DNA of 64,000 bases from positions 558,001 through 622,000 of the forward strand of contig NZ_JPVO01000055.1 in assembly GCF_000772955.1 (NCBI RefSeq), in the 5' to 3' direction. The notes beneath the pieces were generated by a model, which saw only the letters and a list, made by a program, of their open reading frames with translations, was not told the DNA's origin and ran no database searches. The translations under genes and the position numbers were made by a program. This document shows positions 37,162-43,554 of this stretch, piece after piece. Within the stretch, counting starts at the first letter, position 1. Every line of letters begins with the position of its first letter. Origin of the DNA: Ureibacillus sinduriensis BLB-1 = JCM 15800. GTDB lineage: Bacteria > Bacillota > Bacilli > Bacillales_A > Planococcaceae.

Positions 37162-38730
37162 ATGGGTACTGAGCTGCTGTTTTATAGACTATTAATCATC
37201 CTTGCAGGAATTTTGAGTTTATTCTTATCTCTTTTTTCATATTGGAAACTAAAAAATGCTCCTGGTGCCAGACAATATATGTTTGTTACATTTTTGTCGG
37301 CAATCTTTACTTTTTTGTATGCTCTTGAATTATCAGCAACAACACTGAGGGAAATTAAATTCTGGTTGGGGCTAGAGTATGTTGTGATGCCTTTCATACC
37401 TGCTTTTATATTATTGATGTGCCTGGACTATATCGGCATCAAACTTAGACAACGTTATTTTTTTATTCTTTTTAGCATCCCATTAGTAACAGCGTTTATG
37501 CATCATACAAACGAGCTTCATCATCTCTATTATACTTCGGTCGGACTATTAGAGAGTGCTCCTTTTCCAATCATTCAACTAGAGTACGGGCCTTTTTTCT
37601 ATGTTCATTCTCTCTATCTATTCCTATGTCTTGCTATCAGTATTATCCTATTGTTATTGCAGTTGAAAAAATCGATCTTTCGGTTCCGGATTCAACTGTT
37701 GACAATGGTTGCAGGTTTATTTGTGCCGATTCTTGCCAATTCCTTTTATTTAAATGATCTGAGCCCTTACGGTATAGACTTGGGACCGGTATCTATGAGT
37801 ATCTCTTTTATTCTTCATGGGGTAGCACTGTTTTCCTTTCAAATGTTCAGTGTTGTGCCTATTGCAAGGGAAAGGGTGTTTGACAACATGCTGGAAGGAG
37901 TTATCGTGTTAAATCACAAAGGAGTTATCATCGACTACAATCAGGCAATATATCGTATCCTGCCTTGGCTTAATGCTTCATCAATTGGCAAAGGAATAAA
38001 TTCCGTACTATCCCATAGTGAAAGCTTGATTGAACTCATCTCGCATGGCAAGGAATGTGTATATGAGTGTGTCGAAGGAACTTTGACGGAACACTATCAG
38101 GTTCGCTTTTCAGAATTGGTAAACAAAAAGGGTTTCAAGATTGGCACGATCATCTCTTTTGTCAATATAACCGATAGGGTAGAGATGCAAAGAAGGCTTA
38201 GCGAGCTTGCGAATTATGATGGTCTAACAAAACTCTATAATAGAAGATATTTTATGGATCAAACGATAGCCGCACTGGAATCCCTCTTTGCACAAAAAGG
38301 TAATGCCGCGCTGATTATGTTTGATATTGATCATTTTAAAATGATTAATGACACCTACGGACATGTGGCAGGGGATATCGTCTTATGTGAGGTCGCAAAT
38401 TTGGCAAAAAATAGTTTAGGCCCACAAGATTTAATTGCTCGTTATGGCGGAGAAGAGTTTATAATCTTATTGCGCGGAAGGACAATGGATGGGGCGGTTG
38501 AGTTGGCGGATTCGATTAGAAAAGAAATTTCGGAGAGTCTTATCCATCTTCATGATCATCGTATTCAGGTAACAGCGAGCTTCGGAATTTCACCAATAGA
38601 AGTGACAAGTTTAGACCAAACAGAGGCGTTTAAAGAAGCGCTGCGATATGCCGACCAGGCTCTTTATATGGCGAAAGATAATGGAAGAAACAATGTTCAA
38701 ATCCATAAAGAACAGTTGCAAATGGCCTAG
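37162..38730 (+). CDS. Membrane diguanylate cyclase (7TM - PAS - GGDEF)
   Basis: A 522-aa c-di-GMP synthase. An N-terminal seven-helix region like the HisKA_7TM sensor domain (about 5-215) is followed by a PAS-like domain (about 230-330, GVIVLNHKGVIIDYNQAI) and a GGDEF domain (about 345-515). The active-site loop is RYGGEEF (GGEEF at 429-433). The inhibitory I-site position reads GPQD (420-423) in place of RxxD, so product inhibition is probably lost. The ligand of the 7TM sensor is unknown. A decayed surface-protein gene follows. Confidence 0.9.
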   Translation: MGTELLFYRLLIILAGILSLFLSLFSYWKLKNAPGARQYMFVTFLSAIFTFLYALELSATTLREIKFWLGLEYVVMPFIPAFILLMCLDYIGIKLRQRYFFILFSIPLVTAFMHHTNELHHLYYTSVGLLESAPFPIIQLEYGPFFYVHSLYLFLCLAISIILLLLQLKKSIFRFRIQLLTMVAGLFVPILANSFYLNDLSPYGIDLGPVSMSISFILHGVALFSFQMFSVVPIARERVFDNMLEGVIVLNHKGVIIDYNQAIYRILPWLNASSIGKGINSVLSHSESLIELISHGKECVYECVEGTLTEHYQVRFSELVNKKGFKIGTIISFVNITDRVEMQRRLSELANYDGLTKLYNRRYFMDQTIAALESLFAQKGNAALIMFDIDHFKMINDTYGHVAGDIVLCEVANLAKNSLGPQDLIARYGGEEFIILLRGRTMDGAVELADSIRKEISESLIHLHDHRIQVTASFGISPIEVTSLDQTEAFKEALRYADQALYMAKDNGRNNVQIHKEQLQMA

Positions 38731-38734
38731 CTCA

Positions 38735-39256
38735 CTGAGGCTAGTTATTGTAGAAAATATTGAAGAAGAGCCAGAAGAGGATACAGAAGAAGAGTTACCG
38801 GAAAAAACATTGGAAACAAATGAACCGATATTTGAAGAAAAATCGATGAAGCTGGTGATGAAGAATCAACACCAAATGAAGAGGTACCTTCAAATGAGGA
38901 ATCAGTTGAGCAAAATAAACCGGTAAATGAGGTAGAAGAAGGTAGAGAGACTGTACCTTCTGAAGTGAAGAAAGTCTTGATGAAACCACGTCTATCCGAG
39001 ATGTTGATGTATCTTCCATAACAGAAACTACTATCACTACTTATATTCCTAGTATAATAAAAACAGTAAGGAGCAATATATTTTCACGTTTAAATCGGGG
39101 TATTCCTTTTGGGAATTTTACAAATGCAAAGAAATGATCTCGTAGGAAACAAGAGAAAATCGAATAAATTCAGAAAAGGACGGAACGAATTTCAATCCTC
39201 AAAACAAACTAACTCTTGCTGAAATGGCTAAAATGTTATTGCGTCCTTACGCTTAA
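38735..39256 (+). pseudogene. Frameshifted remnant of an acidic, SLH-containing surface protein gene
   Basis: Protein-like sequence runs through three frames: an acidic stretch (IEEEPEEDTEEELPEKTLE), then DEESTPNEEVPSNEES in a second frame, then TTSIRDVDVSSITETTITTY in a third. The end (39185-39256) reads NFNPQNKLTLAEMAKMLL, matching S-layer homology domains. At least two frameshifts and internal stops break it. No start is recognisable. Confidence 0.6.
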
Positions 39257-39295
39257 CCGAATGGTAGTAAAGTTAAGTATTAGTTTTAAAGAAAA

Positions 39296-39320
39296 GGATA
39301 TTCCATCAATTGGAATATCC
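39296..39320 (-). terminator. Terminator downstream of the MFS gene
   Basis: GGATATTCCA pairs with TGGAATATCC. On the minus strand TTTTCTTT follows, ending the peptide-dehydrogenase-exporter transcript. It could also act on the plus strand (CTTCTTT). Confidence 0.7.
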
Positions 39321-39391
39321 CTTCTTTGCAAGAAAAAAATATAGACTCGCAAACAACTGCTGAAACAAAATACTTATATTTTAGCACTTTA

Positions 39392-40621
39392 TTACCGAGT
39401 TGAATTCGTTGATGTCTCTTCTCTTCTTTTACTCGATAATTCTTTATTAATATATATAATCGTAAATATTAACACTAAGATAAAAGCAAGGAAACCTAGT
39501 GTTATAACTACTTTATTAAATCTTATTAAATCAAGTAAAAAACCTATTGAAACCATAGATATTTGTATTAATGTTCTATCTATCATAGACTTAAATGCAA
39601 AAAAACGTCCGTGAAACTCATTTGGAATAGTCTCTTGACTGAAAGTATTAGAAATAGGGTTAAATATTCCATAAGCAAATCCAAATAATCCGAAAGCAAG
39701 AATTGGTAATAATAATATATTAGAAAACGATAGTAAAAATAGTACTACAACAATTAAAAAGCTAGAGACTAATAAACAATAAATACGATTTATATTTTTT
39801 ACTCTTTTACTTATAAATGTACTAGATAATATAAGTGAAATACCTTCAACAGCATATAAAATACCTTTTATTGAAGAGTTATTTTGTATAGAACTAATCT
39901 CAACTATAAATAAGTTAAATCCAGCAATAAATATTGTTGGTATTATAGATAAAAAAAGAATCATTTTTATATCGAATCTTTCAGAGATAACCAAAAACAC
40001 TTCCCTAAATTCAACTTTTTTCTTTATCTTTCTTATAAAGCCATCATCTTTCATATCCAAAGAAAATGTTATTAGAAAAACAAATAAAAAAGCTCCAAAT
40101 GATATAGCGTAAAGAGAGGAGAGTGATATAACGGTTAATAACAATCCACCAATAGTTGCTCCAAAAATCCTTGATAATGTTACGATATTAAGATTCAATG
40201 AATTAGCTATAATTAAATCTTTTTCCTCTGTGATTTCAACTATTATAGCTTGCAGTGCGGGTTCGAAAAATGAAGCTGAACAACTTACACCAATACTATA
40301 GGCCAACATCCACCAAACTGAATCTGTAGCTAAAGCAATGAACATAAAACCAACAGAAATCATTCTTAGAATTCCCACTGTTAATAAAATATTCTTTTTC
40401 GCCACACCATCAATTAATCTACCAGCATACGGAGCAATTAATACGCTAAAAACACTGCCTGAAACCAGAAAAATAGACTGTAAGAGGTGTGATTCAACAT
40501 TTTTTTGTAAAAAATGAAGGTTTCCAATTAGCCCAATCCATAAAGCTAATTGAAATAGTAATTGACTAGTCAGTACTATAACTAGATTTTTGTTTTTGAG
40601 TAATTCCTTCTCAAATTTCAT
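39392..40621 (-). CDS. MFS exporter of the putative RiPP cluster
   Basis: A 409-aa major facilitator with about 12 membrane helices, similar in layout to macrolide/peptide efflux MFS proteins: the loop APYAGRLIDGVAKK between helices 2 and 3, and long hydrophobic stretches to FLVLIFTIIYINKEL. Its start lies inside the dehydrogenase gene (11-bp overlap), so the two are translationally coupled. I infer export of, or immunity to, the modified peptide. Codon use is very AT-rich, like its partner and unlike flanking genes. Confidence 0.85.
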   Translation of the reverse strand: MKFEKELLKNKNLVIVLTSQLLFQLALWIGLIGNLHFLQKNVESHLLQSIFLVSGSVFSVLIAPYAGRLIDGVAKKNILLTVGILRMISVGFMFIALATDSVWWMLAYSIGVSCSASFFEPALQAIIVEITEEKDLIIANSLNLNIVTLSRIFGATIGGLLLTVISLSSLYAISFGAFLFVFLITFSLDMKDDGFIRKIKKKVEFREVFLVISERFDIKMILFLSIIPTIFIAGFNLFIVEISSIQNNSSIKGILYAVEGISLILSSTFISKRVKNINRIYCLLVSSFLIVVVLFLLSFSNILLLPILAFGLFGFAYGIFNPISNTFSQETIPNEFHGRFFAFKSMIDRTLIQISMVSIGFLLDLIRFNKVVITLGFLAFILVLIFTIIYINKELSSKRREETSTNSTR

Positions 40622-41738
40622 AATTCAATTCCTTTAAAAATCTTAAATCACGACCATATTCCAAAGAATCGTTTGATCTATAGCCAATTCCTGAAACACC
40701 CATTACAATTTCTTTGTTGGAATCTATTTTCAATTCCTCTTCAACATATTGATCATTTAAGTGACCTGAAAAAAAGGTACCTAATCCTAACCAATTTGCC
40801 ACTAGAAAACAGGTTTGACTTAAATGGCCCATATCCATCATTAGAACTCTATAAGTTCTAGGACTTTGATATTTCCACATAGAACGTTCGATGCAAGCTG
40901 TATAAAAAAATAATACCGAAGCGCCTTTAACAAAGTTTTGACCTGCAGCCATATCAACAACTTTGTCGGTCATATCTTTTTTATGTATAACTTCAAGTTC
41001 GTGGTTTTCTACAGAATAGTGATAAAGCCCCTTTTCTAAACCTTCAACATTTAAGATTACTGGATATACTTCAATTGGGTGTCTACATCCTCCAGAAGGG
41101 CTCGTCTTAAAGATAATTTTGTCTATTCCAATTTCATATTTACAACTTTGTGCTCCATAAGTAAGATACAACATAGTGGATAAATCATTCAAAGAAATTG
41201 GTTTATCGTTAAAAGAGCGCACTGTTTGACGTCCCAATAACGTTTCTAAAAAGCCCTTCTTTTCCTTGTAGGAAGGAAGCGGCAACTTAATTTTTTCGCT
41301 ATCATTAATATTTTTATATATATTTGGAGGTGTATCACTTTTTCTCTTACTACTCAAACGCTCATATTGTTCATCTTTATCTATATAATGATCTTTGTTT
41401 AAGAGCCGAGTATTATAGTGGAAATATTTACTCGAGGAACCCCAGGTATCCCAATGTTTTAGATTAACTTCTTGTTCATATTCTTTAGAATAATTTTCAA
41501 TTAAAATTTTCGATTCTTTTAACTGGAAAAGGGCAACTTTTAAAAATTCTTCAGTAAAGGTTTCATTATGATTGAGTAAAGTGAAAATTTCATTTTCCTC
41601 TTTCCAAGTTGAAAACAAATTAAGAATAGGATAAATCGAGGAATCTATACTTCTTTGTTCGTGATGTATAAAGTCATCACAAACAAAATGTCCATCTTTC
41701 CAAAAAAATACTATATTACTGTTTATCTTTAACAACAT
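40611..41738 (-). CDS. SagB/McbC-type FMN dehydrogenase with RRE-like N-terminus
   Basis: A 375-aa nitroreductase-fold protein of the SagB/ThcOx group, which oxidises azolines to azoles in known RiPP pathways. FMN-site and family motifs: GRQTVRSF (169-176), SPSGGCRHPIEVYP (213-226), GLYHYSVENHELE (238-250), MDMGHLSQ (301-308), LGLGTF and GVSGIGYR. The Lys289-Tyr290 pair (MWKYQSPRTYR) corresponds to the catalytic Lys-Tyr of McbC-like enzymes. Residues 1-85 have the pattern of a winged-helix, PqqD-like recognition domain (DSSIYPILNLFS...FTEEFLKVALFQLKESKIL). No YcaO gene is adjacent. AGGAG precedes the start. Confidence 0.85.
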   Translation of the reverse strand: MLLKINSNIVFFWKDGHFVCDDFIHHEQRSIDSSIYPILNLFSTWKEENEIFTLLNHNETFTEEFLKVALFQLKESKILIENYSKEYEQEVNLKHWDTWGSSSKYFHYNTRLLNKDHYIDKDEQYERLSSKRKSDTPPNIYKNINDSEKIKLPLPSYKEKKGFLETLLGRQTVRSFNDKPISLNDLSTMLYLTYGAQSCKYEIGIDKIIFKTSPSGGCRHPIEVYPVILNVEGLEKGLYHYSVENHELEVIHKKDMTDKVVDMAAGQNFVKGASVLFFYTACIERSMWKYQSPRTYRVLMMDMGHLSQTCFLVANWLGLGTFFSGHLNDQYVEEELKIDSNKEIVMGVSGIGYRSNDSLEYGRDLRFLKELNYEI

Positions 41739-41776
41739 TTATATTCTCCTAACTTATTAATATATGAAAAATGACC

Positions 41777-41809
41777 AATGGCTGGCATAATAAAATTATG
41801 CCAGCCATT
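41777..41809 (-). promoter_or_regulatory. Perfect 15-bp hairpin between peptide ORF and dehydrogenase
   Basis: AATGGCTGGCATAAT (41777-41791) and ATTATGCCAGCCATT (41795-41809) form a perfect stem with a 3-nt loop. On the transcript it lies 9 nt after the peptide stop. No uninterrupted T-run follows on the minus strand (GGTCATTTTTC), so partial termination or mRNA stabilisation of the peptide message is more likely than full termination. Confidence 0.75.
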
Positions 41810-41818
41810 TTAACTTTT

Positions 41819-41899
41819 TTAGTTTTGAGGAGATGTTTCACCATACTCTTCGTTAATGCGATTGTCATAGTCACTAGTAAATGGTTTGAAAATTGTCAT
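41819..41899 (-). CDS. 26-aa putative RiPP precursor peptide
   Basis: The ATG at 41899 has a strong AGGGGTG site 8 nt upstream and encodes 26 residues, beginning MTIFKPFTSD and ending GETSPQN. It is polar and acidic in the second half (NEEYGE), with two Tyr, three Thr, two Ser and no Cys. It is the first gene of an apparent operon with the SagB-like dehydrogenase and MFS exporter. I infer a precursor peptide, by analogy with the short precursors in front of RiPP enzymes. Regulatory leader ORF is the main alternative. I do not recognise the sequence. Confidence 0.6.
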   Translation of the reverse strand: MTIFKPFTSDYDNRINEEYGETSPQN

Positions 41900-41989
41900 G
41901 TATAACACCCCTATTGGTTTATATATACATTTTTACATTTATTTGTAAATTAGTAAACTATTTATTCTGAAAAATTTAAATATAAATAC

Positions 41990-41995
41990 ATTATA
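41990..41995 (-). promoter_or_regulatory. Possible -10 of the peptide operon
   Basis: TATAAT on the minus strand, about 90 bp before the peptide start, in a very AT-rich leader (41900-42040). No convincing -35 is present at 17 bp. Confidence 0.35.
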
Positions 41996-42041
41996 CTACT
42001 ATATCCTTTTATTTCCACTATATAGTACCTAAGTAAATTGT

Positions 42042-42360
42042 CTAGCAAGAACTTGATATGCTGCGGCCCGGCATCTCGATTCGGTCCGTCTCGGATATCG
42101 TCGCACTTTTAAAGGCAGCATGAAGGGGGAAGTGTATGTATTGCCATTCAAATAATTGTTTAAGAAAACTTTTGATGACAGAGATTTTTAGTGATAGGAT
42201 AGATGGGTTGTAGGGACCATTTTTCGTCACATAATCCGAACGACTTTGTAGCCAATCCACGTATCGATCGATATGACGCTTCTGCAAGAACTTCAACACA
42301 GAAAATTCCTCATCTATATAGATTGGACGTGTATAATCAATCCCAATTTCCCCCAGCCCT
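42042..42360 (-). pseudogene. Integrase-like remnant
   Basis: The translated frame (IDRYVDWLQSRSDYVTKNGPYNP, then SLKISVIKSFLKQLFEWQYI, ending SETDRIEMPGRSISSS) resembles the SAM-like core-binding domain and linker of tyrosine recombinases. There is no catalytic R...HxxR...Y domain, so it is a fragment. The frame continues to 42437, but that part is the terminator and 3' end of the next gene. It suggests past mobile DNA beside the peptide cluster. Confidence 0.5.
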
Positions 42361-42378
42361 TTCCCGATAATAAAAGAG

Positions 42379-42413
42379 ATGCCCCAGACGAGTTTGGGGC
42401 ATCTCTTTTTGCT
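42379..42413 (-). terminator. Terminator of the prenyl-transferase-like gene
   Basis: AGAGATGCCCCA pairs with TGGGGCATCTCT around a short loop (ACGAGTT). On the minus strand TTTTATTATC follows; the plus strand also has TTTTT, so it may work both ways. Confidence 0.85.
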
Positions 42414-42414
42414 G

Positions 42415-43242
42415 TTAGTCAGCCTGTATTTCTTCAACTGTCTTTTCGACCTCTTCGCGGGACATCTTTTCCTTGCCCTCTTTTAAAGATTTGAGTGTTT
42501 TATGTGCCAATGCAAGAGGAAGCCGGCAAAATAATAAAATGGATCGTTTATGAATATCCTTCATATAACGATCGGCTTTTTCTAGGTTCTCCTCCGCATA
42601 CAGGAATAGATCATTTCGTGTCCATCCTTCAGGAACAAAACTTACACCTCGTTCACGGTAATCTTCTTCCTGATTGCGTAAAATATTGACTAATTGCAGT
42701 CCACGGCCATAGCCGATTGCAAGTTCTCTATCAGTTTTGACTCCGGCATTCCATTCCCAAAGCTCGGATAACATGACCCCTACTAATCCTGCTACATAGT
42801 ATGTATATTCGTCCAAGTCTTCCTTTGTACGAACTTGGAAATCATTCTTTGCCCATTTCCCCATACCTTCTGCCATTTCACTAGTGGCATCTTTTACAAT
42901 TTTTTCGGATCCGGCAGGAAGAAGATGAATCCAATCGGCAAGTCGCAATGTCACTTCAGTCAGATATTCCTGTACAGGTTTGATGATTTCAAAATACCTT
43001 TGTTCATTGAATTGTTTTTCCTTTAATAGTCCGCTTACTTCCATTAAAATCGTATGTTTTAATTCACTTGTGACATTAGGGTGTTCATTATCCTCAATTT
43101 CATCGATCGCCCGCATCATTAAATAGGCAGTTGCGACAGCTGTTTTTAATTCTTTTTGTAAAAATGTGATTGGAATATAAAACGTGCGGCTCGTTTCTTT
43201 CAATACTCTCATTGCATCTTTAAGGAGTTCTTTGTCAGACAT
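42415..43242 (-). CDS. yisP: Squalene/phytoene synthase-family protein, YisP-like
   Basis: A 275-aa all-helical trans-isoprenyl diphosphate synthase-fold protein. The first metal motif is D47-E-I-E-D51 (MMRAIDEIEDNE). The second, DxxxD in true squalene/phytoene synthases, reads N190-Q-E-E-D194 (NILRNQEED). An altered second motif fits B. subtilis YisP, described as releasing farnesol from farnesyl diphosphate rather than condensing two molecules. No carotenoid or hopanoid genes are adjacent. Function as a farnesyl phosphatase is inferred. Confidence 0.75.
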   Translation of the reverse strand: MSDKELLKDAMRVLKETSRTFYIPITFLQKELKTAVATAYLMMRAIDEIEDNEHPNVTSELKHTILMEVSGLLKEKQFNEQRYFEIIKPVQEYLTEVTLRLADWIHLLPAGSEKIVKDATSEMAEGMGKWAKNDFQVRTKEDLDEYTYYVAGLVGVMLSELWEWNAGVKTDRELAIGYGRGLQLVNILRNQEEDYRERGVSFVPEGWTRNDLFLYAEENLEKADRYMKDIHKRSILLFCRLPLALAHKTLKSLKEGKEKMSREEVEKTVEEIQAD

Positions 43243-43554
43243 TTTGAATTTTCCTTTCGTTCATAAAGTACATCAATCTAATGGTACATTAAATTTCTTG
43301 AAATGAACAATAGATAATCCGATATTTTGACAGGTAATAAGTATGACGTGCTGGAGATTCACTCTATATTCTATTATTTATGAATGATATAATGTGATTT
43401 GTGTCATATAAGTGCCATACTTTTTCTATTTCGTTACAATGAGGTTAATAGATTGTAAATATAAATTGCTATCGATGAATTTACATTGATTGCTTTGAGA
43501 CTTCTTAGATTATACAAAAAACAGGTTGAATCCTGTTTGAACAGTTAAGGTGGA
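43243..43554. other. Divergent intergenic region
   Basis: AT-rich spacer between the YisP-like gene and the exonuclease gene. It holds a small hairpin (AAACAGG-TTGAAT-CCTGTTT, 43519-43538) and an imperfect TGTGA-N6-TCATA at 43393-43408 that I do not call as a site. No gene is seen. Confidence 0.5.

Follow-up and report, generated by a model that had tools for sequence, protein, structure and literature searches.

A compact peptide, SagB-type dehydrogenase and transporter operon without YcaO in Ureibacillus sinduriensis: a putative RiPP locus

SagB/McbC flavoenzymes are generally regarded as acting second, once a YcaO cyclodehydratase has done its work, and in the linear azol(in)e-containing peptide (LAP) and thiazole/oxazole-modified microcin (TOMM) pathways they are azoline oxidases. 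Here, we describe an operon in Ureibacillus sinduriensis BLB-1 = JCM 15800 that is made up of genes for a 26-aa peptide, a SagB-type dehydrogenase and a major facilitator superfamily (MFS) transporter. It is found on the minus strand of a 64 000 bp stretch of contig NZ_JPVO01000055.1 (positions 558 001–622 000; assembly GCF_000772955.1), hereafter the window, and coordinates are positions in that window. From sequence comparisons it is quite probable that the peptide matures as a ribosomally synthesized and post-translationally modified peptide (RiPP), and we favour, less firmly, a compact RiPP operon in which the dehydrogenase is the only modifying enzyme. It is the smallest YcaO-free case met here, with one 26-residue peptide, one candidate modifying enzyme and one transporter.

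Azole RiPPs of the LAP/TOMM kind (streptolysin S and microcin B17 type) share a SagB-domain dehydrogenase, a dedicated small peptide and a transporter with this operon. However, the window genome has no YcaO, the peptide has few Ser or Thr residues and no Cys, and the whole operon is only three genes long. On gene content the operon is best placed outside the LAP/TOMM class, as YcaO is missing, and a Cys/Ser/Thr-rich core is missing as well.

According to a 2025 preprint (PMC12636437), the YcaO-free nitroreductase domain of PflD, an MNIO-nitroreductase fusion from Pseudomonas pfl/pos clusters, makes Z-dehydrophenylalanine. PflD and the window enzyme share the nitroreductase fold and the lack of a YcaO, and the PflD substrate is a RiPP precursor, but the window operon has no MNIO domain, HEXXH enzyme or GNAT, and has instead a putative 26-aa precursor and an enzyme with an N-terminus that resembles a RiPP recognition element (RRE). 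The authors of PMC12636437 describe nitroreductases without YcaO association as rare and functionally uncharacterized, and state that others may make dehydroamino acids. AlbAB is described as carrying out alpha,beta-dehydrogenations (PMC11055893). An RRE-like N-terminal domain joined to an FMN oxidase domain is found in BmdC, an oxidase of a nonribosomal peptide synthetase (NRPS) pathway, and in the cyanobactin oxidases ThcOx/CyaGox (PDB 7ly4, 5lq4), which are relatives of the window enzyme in sequence; PMC8795117 assigns an RRE-like domain to BmdC and copies of the RRE to ThcOx. BmdC acts on an NRPS-made thiazoline and ThcOx in the cyanobactin pathway, whereas the window locus has no such partner. 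In the titles, abstract openings and passages of open-licence PMC literature, no description of a peptide-SagB-MFS operon was found.

The peptide gene and its conservation

Along the minus strand, the order is peptide gene, stem-loop, dehydrogenase gene and MFS gene. The 26-aa peptide ORF (MTIFKPFTSDYDNRINEEYGETSPQN; 41819..41899) follows the ribosome-binding site AGGGGTG (41906..41912), read directly from the sequence. A stem-loop of 15 pairs with a loop of 3 (41777..41809), recognized by folding and by terminator scoring, lies between it and the gene for the 375-aa dehydrogenase (40611..41738). The latter gene overlaps by 11 bp the gene for the presumed exporter, a 409-aa MFS protein (39392..40621) that matches PF07690 with 93.2 bits and TIGR00900 with 103 bits, the second being under that model's cut-off. 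All of these parts, and their location on a single strand, had been reported in a first-pass annotation made from the sequence alone. That annotation called the peptide ribosome site strong, and the site is indeed good but short of perfect. Its claim of AT-richness is upheld, with GC contents of 0.26–0.33 in the cassette against 0.34–0.44 in the left flank and 0.31–0.41 in the right, and so is its claim that no YcaO, lanthionine or radical-SAM enzyme is nearby. A Pfam scan of 37 of the 41 window ORFs of at least 180 aa was negative for YcaO, LanM, radical-SAM, MNIO and ATP-grasp domains, and the dehydrogenase was the sole known RiPP-modifying enzyme among them. Rfam gave nothing above a gathering score within 38000–43500.

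Intact operons with the same gene order were identified in three further places, and the same short reading frame lies upstream of the dehydrogenase gene in each. The S. thermophila operon (L002, genome G620) encodes an enzyme that is 80% identical to that of the window and the peptide MSIFKPFESEYDQRINAEYGETSPEN, which begins at a TTG codon preceded by a ribosome site, GGAGGTGG, that was read by eye. The enzymes of the second (L007, genome G168) and of the third, in Priestia plasmid pA (L003), are 76% and 55% identical to that of the window, and the peptides are MSIFKPFESEYEKRVNEEYGETSPMN and MTVFKPCENEYKIRVNLEHGETSPSK, respectively. The Priestia operon is located between genes for an ArsP-type permease and a DUF1980 protein (upstream, on the other strand) and nik genes (downstream). 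It had been suggested that dehydrogenase-MFS pairs lacking an upstream peptide, or a peptide Ka/Ks near 1, would speak against a precursor. The homologous pairs found do carry the conserved peptide, and peptide dN/dS is 0.05–0.32 in five of the six pairwise comparisons and approximately 0.48 in the remaining one.

Comparison of the four intact peptides revealed 13 invariant positions out of 26, namely M1, F4, K5, P6, Y11, R14, N16, E18, G20, E21, T22, S23 and P24. Third codon positions are the most divergent in all six pairs of peptide genes, and pS/pN values against the window are 0.73/0.14 (L002), 0.30/0.16 (L007) and 0.57/0.28 (L003), with 0.70/0.26 (L002–L003), 0.64/0.10 (L002–L007) and 0.56/0.21 (L003–L007) among the relatives. 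The window peptide contains no Cys, two Ser and three Thr, and only T22 and S23 among its Ser/Thr residues are invariant. Cys is absent from three of the four peptides, the Priestia peptide having one, and inspection of the window's 26 residues by eye shows no obvious signal peptide. We conclude from the substitution pattern that the 26-aa peptide is a genuine gene, and that the locus displays the general hallmark of a RiPP, a putative precursor peptide under selection beside a modifying enzyme. A further peptide match, in a Paenibacillus plasmid, was dismissed as chance; it is antisense within an annotated 414-codon gene and no dehydrogenase is annotated in the 10 kb shown.

A natural knock-out was found in the same family, where the dehydrogenase was matched in 3 of 261 genomes, namely the window's own, G168 and G260. 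The G260 dehydrogenase (L009) is broken, with matches in frames -1, -3, -2 and -1 and with stops. The changes in the G260 peptide (R14C, N16D, T22I and P24L) affect 4 of the 13 positions at which all four intact operons agree, and these four are exactly the positions altered among the 18 that are invariant in the three close operons. By comparison, the window peptide differs at 2 of the 15 positions on which the other three intact operons agree, the L002 and L007 peptides at none of 13 each, and the distant Priestia peptide at 5 of 18. As invariant positions are altered where the dehydrogenase is frameshifted, the constraint on the peptide seems to have been lost along with the enzyme in this one case. 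The MFS gene of G260 is intact, with pairwise dN/dS of 0.13–0.26. These values are like those of the other MFS genes and give no support to the idea that it has been kept for immunity.

The dehydrogenase and the missing YcaO

With 128.6 bits, the dehydrogenase exceeds the cut-off of 78.4 for TIGR03605 (SagB family peptide dehydrogenase), and its gene is the sole place in the genome to do so, the second match scoring 25.2 bits. The PF00881 nitroreductase domain occupies residues 168–353 (66 bits); a match to TM1586_NiRdase is under its cut-off, and Pfam found no MNIO domain in the protein. The best full-length named family is TIGR04511 (SagB_rel_DH_2, putative peptide maturation dehydrogenase), at 168.5 bits, but this is below the cut-off of 240, which was reached by none of ten enzyme relatives. 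The SagB/McbC label in the first-pass annotation is thus right at the domain level. The accompanying restriction of such enzymes to azolines is not, given the Z-dehydrophenylalanine case described in PMC12636437.

Ahead of the SagB domain (residues ~168–353), the first ~90 residues bear a moderate resemblance to RREs, the peptide-binding domains of the PqqD type. A profile built from 13 N-terminal sequences could be aligned co-linearly over its full length to one of the PqqD family; in two settings, the hhalign probability was 43.7% (E 3.8e-5) and 51% (E 1.5e-4). With the first setting, column-shuffled N-terminal profiles (n = 30 each) reached at most 0.3%. The PqqD profile comprised 29 of 53 script-selected ORFs at PF05402 loci of Bacilli, and includes at least one odd row.

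AlbAB reportedly uses FMN. To judge from its family, the window dehydrogenase probably has FMN as cofactor. In an alignment read by eye, a W288-K289-Y290 motif aligns with the WKY of CyaGox, and Y290 is present in 13 of 13 enzymes and K289 in 11 of 13. The conserved active-site Tyr260 of BmdC, proposed in PMC8795117 to be a general base, may be the counterpart of Y290.

The first-pass annotation offered two options, namely a dehydrogenase that acts alone and one that borrows a cyclodehydratase encoded elsewhere in the genome. YcaO (PF02624) had no match in the host genome (G000, 99.98% complete), in G168, in G260 or in G501, a genome with a more distantly related locus that is described below; the same search was positive in 5 of 14 control genomes. 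There was also no match on the Priestia plasmid, the plasmid being all that was searched of that strain. S. thermophila does have one YcaO, at C24:31166. Despite that single case, the four genomes without a match mean that a borrowed YcaO cannot be general, and borrowing is now unlikely. The option that remains is a dehydrogenase acting alone, with a putative chemistry. Enzyme matches were returned for 121 plasmid records, of which 60 were listed and 12 examined, and YcaO is present in two of the 12 (L005 and L006). Eight of the 12 are annotated, with incomplete gene tables, and none of these tables names YcaO; L050 and L051 are unannotated and were partly scanned.

Related loci in other bacteria

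Loci of the same arrangement with unrelated peptides were found in other Bacilli and on a plasmid of an alphaproteobacterium. In G501 (L040), a 31-aa peptide (MDKKSKNNTVKEETFIFEEQETPMVVMHPSD) is followed by a hairpin, two tandem dehydrogenases that are 28% and 29% identical to the window enzyme, an MFS protein and a DCC1-like protein, in that order. Of the 41 genomes in that family, 4 have the dehydrogenase pair. When the peptides alone were compared, those of two of the other three genomes were identical to that of G501 and that of G1011 (L121) differed, with an 8-residue leader repeat, a different start and the tail ALIPIMHPAD in place of TPMVVMHPSD. The last 10 peptide codons of G501 and G1011 differ by seven nonsynonymous and no synonymous changes, while the adjacent dehydrogenases, 97% identical, differ by 11 and 7 over 381 codons. 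In the 15 codons that precede the tail there are three nonsynonymous changes, at the repeat junction, and no synonymous ones. The excess of changes in the tail, which was picked after inspection, is significant against the nonsynonymous sites of the enzyme (Fisher p 6e-8) and against its synonymous sites (3e-5). Rapid change in the tail combined with a better preserved leader is the pattern of a RiPP precursor, as far as the comparison of these two sequences goes. PMC6160750 mentions Geobacillus clusters that combine a peptide with SagD-like and SagB-like genes, some of which may be of the G501 type.

On a Maritalea plasmid (L047:5528-7945), from an alphaproteobacterium, a 25-aa peptide (MKKVTRTFPNKEKLASFVLDVNGVC) that ends in Cys is followed by a hairpin, a dehydrogenase gene and an MFS gene that overlaps it by 14 bases. 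No YcaO is annotated in the 12.7 kb shown.

Other relatives of the dehydrogenase appear, from their gene neighbourhoods, to be in RiPP-like loci. Radical SAM, methyltransferase, SagB-type dehydrogenase and MFS genes follow each other in a Streptomyces plasmid (L046:3636-8179), and a distant relative in Nonomuraea (L006) is part of a dehydrogenase-YcaO-TfuA-MFS array. A Ligilactobacillus salivarius plasmid (L004:4720-7370) carries an MvdD-type ATP-grasp gene (a weak match, under Pfam cut-offs), a SagB-type dehydrogenase gene and a short peptide ORF, upstream of the ATP-grasp gene. This locus is a candidate only for membership of branch 6, the graspetide loci with a SagB-like enzyme that are described in PMC8939145. 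Its dehydrogenase is related to that of the window (29% identity, from the alignment), but the ATP-grasp ligase that is the hallmark of graspetides is absent from the scanned window ORFs. The L004 peptide shares FExEYxxR with the window peptide, and 8 of 2000 shuffles gave an equally good match; this resemblance suggests a shared recognition motif. No convincing new ORF was found directly upstream of the enzyme gene in L004 or L044, and the peptides of L006 and of an Anoxybacillus amylolyticus plasmid (L048) are candidates only. The latter plasmid encodes two SagB-type enzymes and two downstream proteins without a Pfam match at E 0.01 (L048:5584-11374). In S. meliloti psymA (L050:5986-9070), a gene for a 415-aa SagB-type enzyme is ~1 kb upstream of one for a TP_methylase-fold methyltransferase, which we take to recall borosin enzymes.

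In wider searches, the enzyme was matched in 37 of 398 genomes at class level and 56 of 398 at phylum level. With the exception of G000 and G501, the matches listed begin at model position 92 or later, in open frames of mostly ~240–300 aa. The N-terminal domain therefore seems to be missing from most of these SagB-like proteins. A further profile search of genome contigs returned S. thermophila alone, and neither the enzyme profile nor the peptide pattern matched viral contigs. The enzyme was found in none of the 39 genomes of the G544 family at E 1e-55, a zero that shows nothing by itself.

Proposed maturation, rival explanations and acquisition of the operon

In the scheme that we favour, the 26-aa peptide would be the precursor. 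Recognition probably rests with its first half, xIFKPFxSEYxxRxN, to which the RRE-like N-terminus of the dehydrogenase would bind, and modification probably takes place in its second half, ExGETSPxN. The SagB-type domain, with no cyclodehydratase, would most likely remove two hydrogens from a core residue, an alpha,beta-desaturation with a change of −2 Da. Desaturation is the best-precedented reaction, because PflD desaturates Phe and AlbAB carries out alpha,beta-dehydrogenations, and by analogy we regard it as an evenly balanced proposition. The invariant T22-S23-P24 would be the first candidate segment for the target residue. A near-terminal proline is shared by the window family and the G501 type (HPSD/HPAD), though not by Maritalea, and is a candidate target only. 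Trimming of the product would fall to a housekeeping protease, and export, perhaps with protection of the cell, to the MFS protein; the product may be bioactive. More broadly, and tentatively, a one-enzyme RiPP class may exist in which a single SagB-type flavoenzyme, equipped with an RRE of its own, oxidizes an otherwise unmodified, Cys-poor peptide of 25–31 residues, by alpha,beta-desaturation or at the near-terminal proline that does not vary in the window family, with the peptide-hairpin-dehydrogenase-MFS cassette present in at least two phyla with unrelated peptides. If so, genome-mining rules that expect YcaO beside SagB miss a RiPP class, and such a desaturase, guided by a peptide leader, could be put to good use as a biocatalyst.

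A stem-loop separates the peptide and enzyme genes in all four intact operons and in G260, G501 and the Maritalea plasmid, with z-scores of -5.3 (window), -5.4 (L002), -2.7 (L003), -3.9 (L007), -4.5 (L009), -2.6 (L040) and -4.4 (L047). In the window, the hairpin stretch folds at -24.6 kcal/mol, which was equalled by none of 200 shuffles, and it scores as terminator-like, one of five such sites found versus 1.5 expected. It is probably a leaky terminator or a processing site that would let the peptide message exceed the enzyme message.

Several observations weigh against the proposed scheme. Over the 18 bases that directly precede the enzyme start, which include its ribosome site, the mean pairing probabilities are 0.59, 0.59, 0.62 and 0.40 in the four predicted leader folds (no shuffle control), and a partly paired ribosome site would equally suit a regulatory leader. 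Only four intact operons of the window's family were found, and in these the C-terminal part of the peptide is the best conserved region rather than the most variable. The sign of core variability comes from a single comparison, in a 28%-identical relative, with a 10-codon tail chosen post hoc, and the G501-type leader differs too, in its 8-residue repeat and its start. Five of six other peptides tested have no significant similarity to the window peptide. As for the N-terminal domain, the probability of the PqqD-profile match falls to 10.6% when ten sequences are used and to 1.3% when four are, Pfam finds no PqqD match in the dehydrogenase, and AlphaFold run on the window and L002 sequences gave a pLDDT of 31.5, so this model was excluded from fold searches. 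The RRE-Finder authors suspect that RREs may be vestigial where they are fused to dehydrogenases (PMC7470986).

The main rival, which we consider unlikely, casts the short ORF as a regulatory leader. As in inducible resistance operons, a ribosome stalled on the peptide would alter the RNA fold, and a nitroreductase acting in detoxification and an efflux pump would thereby be switched on. A short ORF and a terminator-like hairpin upstream of an MFS gene are the classical anatomy of such a system, and a stalling peptide would also account for amino-acid conservation and for decay of the peptide together with the enzyme. However, pairing of upstream sequence with the 5' arm of the hairpin is in no excess over chance in any of the four leaders (244–349 of 500 shuffles were at least as stable), and attenuation is less likely on that account. 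The partly paired ribosome site of the enzyme (mean 0.40–0.62 in four uncontrolled leader folds), which is also touched by a second helix in the window and L002 folds, keeps it alive. The stem sequence of L003 is unlike that of the others, the tail of the G501-type peptide outpaces the synonymous sites of the enzyme, and the peptide-binding-like domain of the enzyme and the RiPP-like loci of its relatives also argue against a regulatory leader. A slightly poorer prospect is an azole RiPP, in which a cyclodehydratase other than a recognizable YcaO makes azolines and the dehydrogenase then yields (methyl)oxazoles at the invariant T22-S23. Azoline oxidation is the role of SagB enzymes in LAP/TOMM pathways, the distant Nonomuraea relative adjoins YcaO-TfuA, S. 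thermophila has a YcaO, and the Priestia and Maritalea peptides each contain Cys. A siderophore case of azoline oxidation by a SagB-type enzyme is also described in PMC7413640. Against this, the host genome, G168 and G501 have no YcaO, three of the four intact peptides have no Cys, and the G501 and Maritalea peptides contain no adjacent Thr-Ser pair.

Two further explanations are improbable. The peptide could itself be a secreted signal or toxin, with the dehydrogenase and MFS protein serving an unrelated detoxification. MFS proteins export many small molecules and no product is known for the operon, but the peptide, dehydrogenase and MFS genes are kept side by side in four intact operons whose surroundings differ, peptide positions are altered where the enzyme is broken, and the lack of an apparent signal peptide is a further point against secretion. 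A metallophore operon, in which the modified peptide binds metal and the MFS protein exports it, is marginally the least probable of all. It draws on the nik, ArsP-type permease and DUF1980 genes that surround the Priestia operon, but metal genes adjoin the operon in Priestia only, and a search of window ORFs and, in part, of the flanks of L002 and G168 revealed no gene for metal transport.

The RiPP cassette that we propose is part of a ~3.6 kb AT-rich insertion (38730..42400, limits approximate). When the same flank was compared by blastn with five relatives in the genus (L106–L110), the insertion was missing at that place in all five, and no match to the cassette was found in them. Nor was the dehydrogenase found in the other 24 genomes of the genus, the window's own being the 1 in 25. 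In four of the five relatives the GGDEF and squalene/phytoene-synthase genes adjoin, with gaps of 62 (L107), 36 (L109), 56 (L108) and 309 bases (L106). Window positions 38729 and 42400 are 62 bases apart in L107, and 38700 and 42372 are 36 apart in L109. The end of the GGDEF gene is without a match in L106, and in L110 the GGDEF gene is unmatched and the preceding gene abuts (45 bases). Adjoining the cassette, on its right-hand side, is the remnant of a tyrosine recombinase/integrase gene (42042..42437, minus strand). This remnant has no Pfam match, but by tblastn 42042–42410 is 36–43% identical to annotated recombinases/integrases in nine plasmid records. The S. thermophila operon has a DDE transposase gene upstream. 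The operon was most likely acquired horizontally. Between the GGDEF gene and the cassette, 38730–39390 is a broken coding remnant that is Glu-rich, with an SLH-like stretch seen by eye, and is perhaps part of the same insertion.

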